Positions 5,187 to 19,509 of a stretch of DNA of 21,599 nucleotides are shown one piece after another. Origin of the DNA: a virus; IMG/VR virus record IMGVR_UViG_3300042991_001421, positions 1 to 21,599 of that record; one strand, given 5' to 3'. Numbering within the stretch: position 1 is the first letter of the stretch; every line of letters begins with the position of its first letter. Made by a program: the position numbers and the translations under genes. The notes under the pieces were generated by a model, which saw only the letters and a program-made list of their open reading frames with translations, had not been told where the DNA came from and made no database searches.

Positions 5187-6091
5187 CAGGCCACCTTTTT
5201 GAAGGCGTACGCTCGGGTACCGGGAAATGCGCGCTCGCGGGACGACCACGGGAAGAGCTTCCAGGTGTCGGCGCCCACGGCCACCTCCTGGCCATCGGCG
5301 TAATTGGTGATATCACACAGCGCGATGTCAGGAGGATACCCGACTATGGACCAATAGGAACTCGCGCGGCTTACCGCCAGCACCATGGGGAAAAACGCGG
5401 TGGCCTCGTTGAATGTGTTCGGCTGGCAAACCATGAGGTCTTCCAGCAGCCCCTTGTTGCGGCACGGCCCCAAACACCGTGGGGTGGAACTGACATTCCC
5501 CGTCATGGGCACCCATCCCAGCACGCCATCCACATCCGCGCGCAAATGGCTGCGGTACCCGGGCGGGTTGCTGAGTTGCCCCGCATCAAAATAGTAGCTG
5601 TGGCCCTGCGAATCCGTGTTCAAGCCGGTGGGCAGCTCATAGACCGCCCCCACGTGGGCGCCCGATTGCGCAGGGGCCAGCCCGGTTTTTGTGATGAGGC
5701 CCCACCCCGCATGGCGAAACGTGCCGGTCACCTGTTCAACGACCAGAAAAAACGAATCCCCGTTCGCGAAAAAATGATACGCGGCATAGGGCCCGGCCAT
5801 GTCCCTCAGCAGCGCCGATGGAGACGCGCCTGGCTGCGCGTTCCACGCGTCCCCGGCGTCGAAACCGTCAGAGCCACCCAGCCAGATATGGTGGCCCGTG
5901 TTCTGGGTATAGGTAGGGTTCGTCAAGGTAGAGCGCAGATTGACGTACTGGTCGCCCTTTTTTAAATGCAAACGCCAGCCGTCTCCGTCAGTGGCCCACA
6001 AGTTGAGACTCCACCCGCTGGCAACGGCAAACGTTTTGATTTTGTCGAGCAGGTCGTTTTCATCCAGTGCGGCCCCGGTTTCGTATGCCAC
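5186..6091 (-). CDS. Distal tail protein, second of a related pair
   Basis: This 301-residue protein starts with GTG at 6091, with GGAG about 7 bases upstream and only 3 bases from the preceding stop. Its opening (MAYETGAALDENDLLDKIKTF) resembles that of the gene before it (MAVEIGTATGYLDLLDKLRIF). Both have similar size and Trp/Tyr-rich beta-type composition, so the two probably arose by duplication. Proteins of this length sit directly after the tape measure in B3/D3112-like phages. It probably builds part of the tail tip, where lambda M/L-type proteins act, but no specific activity can be seen. The last base of its TGA is the first base of the next ATG. Confidence 0.7.
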   Translation of the reverse strand: MAYETGAALDENDLLDKIKTFAVASGWSLNLWATDGDGWRLHLKKGDQYVNLRSTLTNPTYTQNTGHHIWLGGSDGFDAGDAWNAQPGASPSALLRDMAGPYAAYHFFANGDSFFLVVEQVTGTFRHAGWGLITKTGLAPAQSGAHVGAVYELPTGLNTDSQGHSYYFDAGQLSNPPGYRSHLRADVDGVLGWVPMTGNVSSTPRCLGPCRNKGLLEDLMVCQPNTFNEATAFFPMVLAVSRASSYWSIVGYPPDIALCDITNYADGQEVAVGADTWKLFPWSSRERAFPGTRAYAFKKVA

Positions 6092-13505: not shown

Positions 13506-13571
13506 GGGGTCAGGTCTTGCGTTGGCACGTGGCGCGCCTGGGAGGATGGCGCCAATGCAAGACCTGACCCC
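13506..13571. repeat. REP-like inverted repeat before the capsid gene
   Basis: GGGGTCAGGTCTTGCGTTGGC (13506-13526) matches the reverse complement of 13551-13571 at 20 of 21 bases, with a 24-base spacer. The CAGGTCTTGC/GCAAGACCTG type of palindrome is a dispersed repeat in many bacterial chromosomes, often linked to REP-associated (IS200-like) transposases; that link is recalled knowledge, not shown here. It fills most of the gap between the decoration gene (stop at 13582) and the capsid gene (start at 13455). Confidence 0.85.
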
Positions 13572-14385: not shown

Positions 14386-14441
14386 GTAGGAGCGCCGCCC
14401 TCGGCGCGATAAGGGGATTCGCGGCGGGGCGCCGCTCCTAC
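14386..14441. repeat. GTAGGAGCG-type palindrome between scaffold and decoration genes
   Basis: GTAGGAGCGCCGCCC at 14386-14400 and a matching reverse-complement arm ending GCCGCTCCTAC at 14441 form an imperfect hairpin of about 56 bases. Palindromes with GTAGGAGCG ends are dispersed repeats in several GC-rich bacterial genomes. It lies between the protease/scaffold stop (14452) and the ribosome-binding site of the decoration gene. Confidence 0.8.
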
Positions 14442-14451
14442 CCCGGGATGG

Positions 14452-14952
14452 CTATTTGCCTTTCGTGACGTGGGCCACGCACTCCGTGATGCTCACGGTG
14501 CGCCCGGCCTTGGCCTCGGAAAGCTGGAAGTCCTGGGCCTTTTTGGCCACGGCCTGGGGGTCATCCTCGGCAAGGCCCTTCTCCTTCCCCGCCCGCTCGG
14601 AGAAGTCCACGGCCACGGGGAGGTTGGTGAGGAAGCCCTTGAGGACTTCGCCCGGCGCCTTGGTGACGGGCACCGCCTTGTCCCCCTCGCCCTCGGAGAA
14701 CTCCACGGCGCCGCCGGGGTCGAGCGATGCGAGCAGGGCTGTGACGGGGGCCTGGTCGCGCGGCAGGACCTTCCCCGCCTTCACCAGCCCCTCCACGAAG
14801 TCGGCCGATTCCTGTGCGAGGCGCTTGCGCTCCCCGGCCTGGATCTCGGTCTCCTTCGCGACGATGCCCGCCTCCCGCTCGGCGAACTCCGCCTCTTTGG
14901 TGGCGATCGCCCTCTCTCGGTCCTCCAGTTCCGTCTTCGCCTTTTCGTCCAT
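14452..14952 (-). CDS. Capsid scaffold protein from an internal start in the protease gene
   Basis: An in-frame ATG at 14952, inside the protease gene, has AAGGAG 5 bases before it (14958-14963) and would give a 166-residue protein beginning MDEKAKTELEDRERAIATKE. It is a charged, probably coiled-coil region (about residues 1-70), typical of scaffolds. In Mu, gene I encodes the protease and its 3' part is also made separately as scaffold Z; lambda C/Nu3 works in the same way. The scaffold would shape the prohead and then be cleaved by the protease. Confidence 0.7.
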   Translation of the reverse strand: MDEKAKTELEDRERAIATKEAEFAEREAGIVAKETEIQAGERKRLAQESADFVEGLVKAGKVLPRDQAPVTALLASLDPGGAVEFSEGEGDKAVPVTKAPGEVLKGFLTNLPVAVDFSERAGKEKGLAEDDPQAVAKKAQDFQLSEAKAGRTVSITECVAHVTKGK

Positions 14953-15576
14953 GGGGTCTCCTTCGGGTTCTGAAAACATGGCCTGGGGCACGGCGTCCGC
15001 CGCTTCCGCGTCGGCGAGGCCCTGAATGCTCCAGTCGGGCAGGGCGCTGTTTGCGGCGTCCTGCCCGAATTTTTCGATCACGAGTTCCCGCAAGCCCCGA
15101 AACAGCCGGGCCACGACGCCGGCAGGGGCCTCCGCAAAGTCCGCGAAAAACTCCACGACTCCCTCATCGCCCTCGGCCAGGTCGGCGGGGCTTCGCAGTC
15201 CCTTGACGGCGGGGGGCTCCGCACCCAAAAACCCCACATGGCGGAGGTACAGCGCCCCGGGCTTCGGGTTCGTGGGCTGCTCGGACAGGTAGAATGAGGC
15301 CGAGATCTTCTTGAACCGCCCGGCCTTCACCATTTCGGCAAACTGGGCGTCCACCTGGTGGGGCTCCGCCGACAGCCTCCCCTCCGAAAAAGCCAGGCTC
15401 TTGACCCACCCGTAGGCGGGGTTGTCGGTCTTGGGGTGCCCCACGACGATGGGGGCCTCGTGGGCCTCGGGGTCGTACCGCTGCGCCACGGCGGCGAGGA
15501 CGGTCTCGCTGAGATCGAACTCGCGGCCGTGCCGGTCGGTGACCTTCCCCGCTTTGCAGATCTCAATTCGCTTCAT
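14452..15576 (-). CDS. Prohead protease with scaffold region (Mu I-like)
   Basis: This 374-residue protein matches the Mu I family. The N-terminal ~140 residues form the protease domain, with KVTDRHGREFDLS, APIVVGHPKTDNPAYGWV and the segment KKISASFYLSEQ, where a Ser next to a Lys-rich strand fits the expected serine protease type. The exact catalytic residues are not assigned with certainty. From about residue 209 the protein is charged and coiled-coil-like (the scaffold part, with its own start). Asp/Glu-rich linkers join the two. The ATG at 15576 has GGGAGG about 9 bases upstream. It matures the prohead by cutting scaffold and possibly other head proteins. Confidence 0.88.
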   Translation of the reverse strand: MKRIEICKAGKVTDRHGREFDLSETVLAAVAQRYDPEAHEAPIVVGHPKTDNPAYGWVKSLAFSEGRLSAEPHQVDAQFAEMVKAGRFKKISASFYLSEQPTNPKPGALYLRHVGFLGAEPPAVKGLRSPADLAEGDEGVVEFFADFAEAPAGVVARLFRGLRELVIEKFGQDAANSALPDWSIQGLADAEAADAVPQAMFSEPEGDPMDEKAKTELEDRERAIATKEAEFAEREAGIVAKETEIQAGERKRLAQESADFVEGLVKAGKVLPRDQAPVTALLASLDPGGAVEFSEGEGDKAVPVTKAPGEVLKGFLTNLPVAVDFSERAGKEKGLAEDDPQAVAKKAQDFQLSEAKAGRTVSITECVAHVTKGK

Positions 15577-16544: not shown

Positions 16545-16646
16545 GGTTGTGAGGCCCTGACAACTGGGAAATCGCCGGTCCAGTTGGGTAACCCGTCAAG
16601 GGCCTCCGTTACGGGGAAGGTGGCGTACCCCCTGGGCCTCACAACC
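16545..16646. other. 102-base structured element with perfect 13-bp inverted ends between F and G
   Basis: GGTTGTGAGGCCC at 16545-16557 is exactly repeated in inverse at 16634-16646. Inside lie CAACTGG (16561-16567) pairing with CCAGTTG (16580-16586), the near-palindrome GGGTAACCC (16586-16594), and a further arm GTCAAGGGCCTC (16595-16606) that pairs, with one bulge, with GAGGCCCTGAC (16551-16561). That last pairing uses bases of the outer stem, so the two folds exclude each other. The TGA stop of the F-like gene (16639-16641) lies in one arm. It may be a structured RNA or a small mobile palindrome. Confidence 0.75.
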
Positions 16647-17916: not shown

Positions 17917-19509
17917 CTACCGGAGTTCCTGCATCACGTCCCACCGCCCCGCCAGCTCGGCGGCGAGGAGGGCCTGTTCCATGATCTCGGTGAACCTCCC
18001 GGCGGGCATGTCTGGATAGGCTTCGAAGAGGGAGTCCCTCAACCCTTCGAGGCTGGTGGCCTCGCCCACGATCTTCCGGATGGGTTCCAGGAGGGCGGCC
18101 ACCGCGGGGCCCGCCTCGCGGGAGAGACGGTCTGCGAGGATGGATGGGGTATCGGGTGGGACAGGCGTTCCCGCCTGTCCAGTCTCGCCTTCGGCGAGGG
18201 CCACCGCCTGGTCCTTGTCTTTCGTGGCGCGGGCGCCCCCGCCCGCGAGGGGCCAATCTCCCCCTGCCCCCTCTTTTCCTAAGAGGGGGTTCTGTGCCCC
18301 CGCGGGCGAGGGCGCCCGCGCCACATCCAAGGGCGCCCGCGCCACGCCGGTATCGGTTCTCTCCCCGCCGTAGGTGTCTTCGATGTATTTCATGGTGGGC
18401 CGGAACCCCATCTCGTTCAGGGTCTTGTCCCGCTCGGCCACCTGGTTCAGGTCCTCCGGCTCCTCGATGCGGCGCCAGACCTTCGGGACCTTCGCCCCCG
18501 GGAAGTTCCACTCCGTGAGCCAGCGGGCGGGCCCCATGTTGAAGCTCTGGCACAGCAGGTCCGCGTCGGCCTTGATGAGGTCCTGCCTCACGTCCATGTG
18601 GGTCTGGGACTGGGACGAGCCCAGCCCCGTGTTCTTGGCGTCGGTGGTGAGGGTCTGGCCCAGGGTGACCTTGGTGATCGCGGCGTCCATGCGGTCGTAG
18701 AAGAGGCTGAAATCCGCCCCTGCCGCCCGCTTGGCCTCGATGAGTTCGATGGTCATCCCATCGGGGATGATCACCCCGGCGTCCGTCTGGATGGCCGCGA
18801 GGGCCGACAGGAGCTTCGTCTTCTCTTCGGCTGTGGCCCCCCGCGGGTATTTCCCCGAGGCCGTGGGCATGCCGTACTTGTCCAGGAAAATAGCCCAGAA
18901 CTTCAGGCCGTTGCGCTTGAAAAACACGGGCCAGTAGAGCCAGTGGCCCAGCCCCAGTCCGTAAGGCTCGTCGTCGTTGTCCGCCCCGCACGAGTAGGCC
19001 CAGAACTTCCGGTCCGGCAGCAATTCCCCCTGGGGGTTCGCGCTCGTCTTCAGGCGGAGGCGGTAGGCCCCGTCGAAGGCGAAGCGCCGCCGGTTGCGCA
19101 CGAGGGCCTTGTCGAGAGTGACCTGGGCGCCGTCCCGCCCCCACATGCACTCGGCCACGCTGTAGCCGTAGTAGACCCCGAAGTGCATCTTGTCCGTGGT
19201 GTCATCCCAGTCCAGCGCCTTCAGGTTGGCCTTCAGCGCCTCGGCCGCCTTCTTGTCCTGGCGCGAGTCGCCCCCGGCCTCCACCTCCCACTCGGCCTTG
19301 ACCACCGCCAGGCGGCGCTGCTGGAGCGTGGCGTGAACCTGGTCGTCCCTCAGCAGCTCCTCGTAGAGCTTCAGGTCGTACCCGCCCCGCGTCTGGAGGA
19401 CCGTGTCCGCCGGCATGAGGAGCTGGAGGGGGTCCACGAAGCCCCGGGTGATGTCCCGCCCGTCGCGCGTGGTGGCGATCTCGTTCATGTCTGGGGGTTT
19501 GCCCGGCAT
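17917..19509 (-). CDS. Portal protein, DUF935 (Mu gp29-like)
   Basis: This 530-residue protein is the dodecameric portal through which DNA enters. The DUF935 signature is clear: EELLRDDQVHATLQQRR near residue 50, VYYGYSVAECMW near 110, then FLDKYGMPTASGKYP near 210 and TLGQTLTTDAKNTGLGSSQ near 285. The start at the ATG at 19509 has GAGGT 5 bases upstream. Residues about 388-451 do not look like portal sequence: they are encoded by palindromic repeats that read through in frame (GVARAPLDVARAPSPAGAQ, then NPLLGKEGAGG, later GQAGTPVPPDTP). The normal family-like helical C-terminus resumes after them. The gene lies between the large terminase and the F-like gene as in Mu. Confidence 0.92.
   Translation of the reverse strand: MPGKPPDMNEIATTRDGRDITRGFVDPLQLLMPADTVLQTRGGYDLKLYEELLRDDQVHATLQQRRLAVVKAEWEVEAGGDSRQDKKAAEALKANLKALDWDDTTDKMHFGVYYGYSVAECMWGRDGAQVTLDKALVRNRRRFAFDGAYRLRLKTSANPQGELLPDRKFWAYSCGADNDDEPYGLGLGHWLYWPVFFKRNGLKFWAIFLDKYGMPTASGKYPRGATAEEKTKLLSALAAIQTDAGVIIPDGMTIELIEAKRAAGADFSLFYDRMDAAITKVTLGQTLTTDAKNTGLGSSQSQTHMDVRQDLIKADADLLCQSFNMGPARWLTEWNFPGAKVPKVWRRIEEPEDLNQVAERDKTLNEMGFRPTMKYIEDTYGGERTDTGVARAPLDVARAPSPAGAQNPLLGKEGAGGDWPLAGGGARATKDKDQAVALAEGETGQAGTPVPPDTPSILADRLSREAGPAVAALLEPIRKIVGEATSLEGLRDSLFEAYPDMPAGRFTEIMEQALLAAELAGRWDVMQELR
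18157..18345. repeat. Palindromic repeat cluster inside the portal gene
   Basis: The parts are: hairpin GGACAGGCG/CGCCTGTCC (18159-18167 with 18172-18180, 4-base loop); CTCGCC/GGCGAG (18184-18198); a large hairpin with a perfect 14-bp outer stem (GTGGCGCGGGCGCC at 18224-18237 with 18311-18324), a 7-bp inner stem (18241-18247 with 18301-18307), and a 9-bp hairpin CCCCCTCTT/AAGAGGGGG at its tip (18267-18275 with 18281-18289). A third copy of the arm, GGGCGCCCGCGCCAC, follows at 18331-18345 as a direct repeat of 18310-18324. The portal frame remains open through all of it. Such elements are normally intergenic. Confidence 0.85.

Follow-up and report, generated by a model that had tools for sequence, protein, structure and literature searches.

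The portal gene in a 21.6-kb viral contig (the window, meaning the whole stretch of DNA that was analyzed) contains palindromic REPs of the GTAG/GTGG type that are translated in frame as part of the portal protein. REPs are usually regarded as intergenic elements of bacterial chromosomes. In the explanation that we favor, at a probability of about 0.82, the window belongs to a Mu/B3-like temperate phage in which host-type REPs were inserted, most likely when it resided as a prophage in a host rich in REPs, and were tolerated in a probably processed linker of the portal protein.

The palindrome cluster within the portal gene

The head genes of the window follow a Mu/B3-like order (Gp27, terminase, PF06074 portal, Mu F, and tail S). 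The portal protein was assigned to PF06074 by a profile match over residues 47-381 (E = 4e-112, 375 bits against a cut-off of 23.9), it is 48-59% identical to the portals of named phages such as phage B3, and its fold agrees with those of the JBD30 and Mu portals. Within this gene, which is on the minus strand, a palindrome cluster occupies positions 18156-18345, confirming the original prediction of about 190 bases of nested and tandem palindromes. Folding of the cluster was 8-9 standard deviations stronger than that of shuffled sequences, both as DNA (- 76.8 kcal/mol compared to - 48.2 ± 3.4 for dinucleotide shuffles; z = - 8.4, 0/200) and as RNA (z = - 9.0). The 101-base hairpin-on-a-hairpin described earlier was found at 18224-18324 as an inverted doublet of one unit, REP A, and its 28-nt arms (18224-18251 and 18297-18324, 93% match) form the strongest inverted repeat across the window. 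The extra copy of the arm was found as well, at 18330-18345. A second GTGG-tagged element, REP C, lies 44 nt from the doublet and has the same tag, stem, and loop lengths, so that GTGG, an 8-bp stem, and a 4-nt loop occur twice in REP A and again in REP C. Coordinates are listed in Table 1.

Portal residues 389-451 are encoded by 189 bases of the cluster. The span of about 388-451 had been proposed to be repeat-encoded throughout, which held for about residues 389-431 and 443-451, the actual inserts, while residues 437-442 (ALAEGE) proved to be native family sequence. The proposed alignment with family members made this distinction, as the repeat peptides are absent from relatives and ALAEGE aligns with their conserved FAE motif; the small palindrome at 18184-18199 was rejected as a part of the insert on this basis. 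The frame is open across the cluster, as predicted, though this is weak evidence here because 37% of base-shuffled versions are likewise stop-free at 74% GC. The portal core was expected to be unaffected, and indeed the inserts follow the core, and past them the C-terminus typical of the family continues with the frame unchanged.

Table 1 Features of the window and of two acidobacterial contigs (L312, L215)
Feature	Position	Strand	Basis
Inverted repeat GGGGTCAGGTCTTGCGTTGGC between genes, probably another REP-like element	13506..13571	.	
Intergenic GTAG-tagged inverted REP-like doublet	14386..14441	.	
Putative head protease/scaffold protein, 12 [FL][AS]E motifs	14452..15576	-	Gene order and Mu biology
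Mu-type portal protein gene, 530 aa	17917..19509	-	PF06074 profile match
REP C: GTGG tag + GACAGGCG / TTCC / CGCCTGTC	18156..18179	+	Sequence
Small palindrome encoding ALAEG, native (F/L)AE motif, candidate head-protease site	18184..18199	.	Alignment with relatives
REP A, second copy, inverted: GTGG + CGCGGGCG / CCCC / CGCCCGCG	18224..18247	+	Sequence, arm pairing, folding
Palindrome nested in the doublet spacer: CCCCCTCTT-TTCCT-AAGAGGGGG, 9-bp stem	18267..18289	.	Sequence, folding
REP A, first copy: GTGG tag + CGCGGGCG / CCCT loop / CGCCCGCG; encodes VARAPSPA	18301..18324	-	Sequence
REP A, truncated third copy (tag, left stem, loop); extra 16-nt arm copy	18330..18345	-	
RAYT-like ORF with in-frame REP A	L312:769-1761	+	NF047646
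RAYT-like ORF with in-frame REP A	L215:3-509	-	NF047646

The inserts lie in a variable linker predicted to be disordered

In 80 close relatives, the portal domain ends in YGG(E), a short and variable linker separates this end from a conserved xFAEx motif, and no repeat peptides are present; these proteins pass from YGGE/W to xFAEx without an insert, indicating that the in-frame insertion is absent from homologues. Across 163 non-redundant portals, the length of the linker is very variable, reaching 119 residues. AlphaFold2 gave pLDDT values below 50 for residues 395-450, between helices at 373-380 and 454-483, in agreement with the disordered loop that had been anticipated for the insert.

The Mu gp29 and JBD30 gp32 portals share family and fold with the window portal but have no palindromic insert, and it is the insert that makes the linker of the window portal longer. 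The Mu structure lacks the C-terminal region: the final 124 residues of gp29 do not occur in the virion and are presumed to be removed by the head protease, protease I (PMC11915804). Mu residue 388, the last in the virion structure, aligns with approximately residue 368 of the window portal, placing the insert about 20 residues past the last ordered Mu residue, and the JBD30 model is likewise incomplete, covering 405 residues of a 526-residue chain. From these comparisons, an ordered decoration of the portal ring, suggested earlier in the form of twelve copies of the insert, is unlikely, since the insert is predicted to be disordered and follows the point at which the model of the Mu virion portal ends.

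The linker is also marked by a short motif, F[AS][EDA], which is present in 134 of 163 linkers compared to 4% of core windows of equal size. The density of [FL][AS]E in the putative protease/scaffold protein, which had no Pfam match, is 32 per 1000 residues compared to 0-6 per 1000 in the other proteins of the contig. The 12 copies in that protein suggest a head-protease cleavage motif. Judged from these sequence patterns, the (F/L)AE-type motif fits the role of a head-protease recognition motif of this phage group, and the linker is probably processed. If cleavage takes place at the (F/L)AE motif, the insert would either be left as a free tail at the C-terminus of the mature portal or be trimmed further.

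Palindromes recur in the linkers of other portals

Among the 163 portals, stems of at least 9 bp occur at 0.49/kb in linkers, 0.05/kb in portal cores, and 0.07/kb in the remaining ORFs of these contigs, a 7-10-fold enrichment of long stems over core or other genes (P = 2e-6 and 4e-6; 5e-5 and 1e-4 after two stems are discounted to allow for the window portal). With the window portal excluded, a best-stem score of at least 9 was reached by 12/161 linkers compared to 7/966 core windows (P = 1e-6) and 22/966 codon-shuffled linkers (P = 0.0015). Some stems also arise in codon-shuffled linkers (13 linkers observed at this score, 4 expected), indicating that composition accounts for part of the enrichment but not for all of it.

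The recurrent palindromes are of several kinds. CGTC-type REPs were found five times in 22.6 kb of linker compared to once in 178 kb of core, and the linkers that carry them (L461, L413, L045, L373, and L387; for example GTCATTCCCGCGCAGGCGGGAATCCAG) fall on five separate branches of the portal tree. The linker of L016 has a different palindrome, that of L063 has a 16-bp perfect stem, and the palindrome of the L033 linker has a second copy on the same contig, at 5258-5311. In the Planctomycetota prophage L323, two CCCCCTTTGT...AAGGGGGA units are present in the portal linker and also elsewhere in the genome, and the palindrome in the spacer of the window doublet (18267-18289) resembles the CCCCCT...AAGGGGGA palindrome of this prophage linker. 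For 14 portals with clear palindromic inserts, picked by eye and stem score, 12 changes are needed on the tree, where the portal nearest to that of the window is at a distance of 0.72. Linker repeats recurred on the same contig for 4/162 linkers and for none in five sets of core windows. This same-contig count alone was used; a BLAST comparison of linkers and core windows with other contigs was dropped because the counts for core windows are inflated there by unmasked fragments of portals.

Two other kinds of length variation were seen in these portals. The related portals of L036, L042, and L055 have a longer segment in the same linker (QQTALNGAQIKSL...), apparently a small domain and not a palindrome. 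The portal ORFs of L354, L363, L397, L399, L403, and others are 690-920 aa, compared to the usual 480-530 aa, and are possibly fused with the head gene that follows.

Palindromic inserts at the same place in several lineages, together with the great stability of the hairpin as RNA, could mean that the insert is kept for a function of the peptide or hairpin in portal processing, scaffold contact, or mRNA stability. However, the peptides are wholly different between lineages, most relatives have no insert, and the site is predicted to be disordered and lies in the part that the Mu particle lacks. Tolerance is therefore likelier than a shared function; a functional role is improbable, and the insert presumably has none of its own. 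The recurrence also bears on whether host REP DNA was joined to a phage gene in a chimeric metagenome assembly. Repeats often cause misassembly and the contig was taken from a set of viral metagenomes, but the return of the family C-terminus in frame, and the presence of comparable inserts at this site both in many independent contigs and in the Planctomycetota prophage, make a chimera very unlikely.

REP A and REP C belong to a known type of bacterial REP

In place of the host genome named in the proposed check, other bacterial genomes were used to count the repeats. The REP A 24-mer, GTGGCGCGGGCGNCCNCGCCCGCG, had at least 119 matching stretches in bacterial genomes from at least five phyla, with Acidobacteriota, Planctomycetota, Armatimonadota, Zixibacteria, and Verrucomicrobia among the matches listed, and many of the matches are paired as inverted doublets. 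In 18 bacterial genomes from several phyla, REP A was present in 3-95 copies per genome, the highest count coming from one genome, compared to 0-3 for a reversed control pattern. By a crude measure using stop-to-stop ORFs in GC-rich DNA, 48% of REP copies lie within ORFs of at least 250 aa, compared to 69% of random positions. The description of the portal palindromes as a usually intergenic type translated in frame was supported, and relatives do not have the repeat peptides.

In two acidobacterial contigs, L312 and L215, REP A lies in frame inside genes resembling those of REP-associated tyrosine transposases (RAYTs), where it is translated as VARAPSPA just as it is in the portal. These genes matched the RAYT model NF047646 below its curated cut-off (8.9e-21 for L312 and 6e-6 for L215), and a RAYT motif was found in 3 of the 119 loci among the matches listed. 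A GTGG REP lies just upstream of the HUH motif in both genes, and in L312 another REP copy, at about 1698, is encoded close to where the ORF ends.

For REP C, the Planctomycetota genome G004 contains four GTGG- or GTAG-tagged relatives, GGGACAGGC-TTTCC-AGCCTGTCC. The exact REP C palindrome had no match in the viral contigs or the genome contigs searched, and none was found with one mismatch in 294 Planctomycetota genomes; the host was therefore not identified in this way. Planctomycetota are not supported as the host, the best portals there being 35-37% identical. Matches to GTGGCGCGGGCGCCC in viral contigs were mostly chance coding matches, with few palindromes among them.

GTAG-tagged REPs have been described with a tetranucleotide tag, a 6-9-bp stem, a short loop, inverted dimers, and high copy number, and they sometimes lie inside ORFs (PMC3733652), all of which apply to the portal repeats. 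The tag is GTGG in most GTAG-20 elements of Opitutus terrae, and REPs are reported inside genes of several bacteria (PMC3733652). The likeness to GTAG-20 is one of tag and general description, and the main text of PMC3733652 makes no mention of phage, virus, or CGCGGGCG. Inverted REP doublets are by definition REPINs (PMC3116915), and the portal doublet is REPIN-like in having a spacer and a predicted hairpin. Its size is also of the REPIN kind, with a spacing of 71 or 110 bp in P. fluorescens and 101 nt in all in the portal. REPINs were described for extragenic space (PMC3116915), whereas the portal doublet is coding, lies in a phage gene, and holds a second palindrome in its spacer.

Hairpin-templated duplication in place during replication, without transposition, would fit the tandem truncated arm copy, and local duplication may account at most for that copy (18330-18345), but as the source of the cluster it is as remote as a chimera given that the GTGG-tagged 24-mer is identical in distant bacteria and that two further unrelated palindromes adjoin REP A. 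Functional retention, chimeric assembly, and local duplication are each less likely than insertion of host REPs.

Origin and significance of the insert

Insertion of host REPs would have brought at least three kinds of these elements into the portal gene, nested and side by side, the main piece being the GTGG-tagged, REPIN-like doublet whose spacer holds another palindrome. This most likely happened during the prophage state in a REP-rich host, with a host RAYT as the most likely mover. The repeats became coding because together they did not shift the reading frame and because units this rich in GC contain few stops. Frame-keeping insertions would survive in a linker that is flexible and outside the folded portal, with proteolytic processing possibly occurring at the (F/L)AE motif. 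Their tolerance is put down to the variable, disordered nature of this linker, which precedes a C-terminal segment that is absent from the mature particles of relatives.

The precedent cited in the original prediction, palindromic elements inserted in frame in Rickettsia genes (RPEs), is apt, as RPE-4 and RPE-6 are the CGTC-4 and CGTC-1 REPs, respectively (PMC3733652). As in the portal, RPEs are palindromes in frame in unrelated genes, and the CGTC-type inserts of other portals match the description of CGTC REPs. The window repeats instead begin with GTGG, and both host and gene class differ; the window insert behaves like an RPE without being one.

Intragenic REPs and Rickettsia RPEs are already known. 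What appears to be new is that such elements sit in a phage structural gene, are nested one in another, and have come to the same linker more than once, making it a repeated landing site. A literature search of incomplete coverage found no paper reporting REPs in a phage portal. Here, REPs have been turned into protein in a viral structural gene, in several lineages and in the same linker. This amounts to a natural experiment on which sites of a virion protein can accept added peptide, and it keeps within a gene a record of how REPs move in a replicon able to leave the chromosome. The repeats may also serve as a marker tying metagenomic phages to hosts. The chances are about even that the Mu-type portal linker, processed by the protease, serves generally as a safe harbour where host REPs are gathered time and again by temperate phages as coding sequence; if it does, portal linkers would preserve a history of the REP-rich hosts in which a phage lineage has lived.

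In addition to the two intergenic elements in Table 1, an inverted repeat at 16545-16646 also lies between phage genes.
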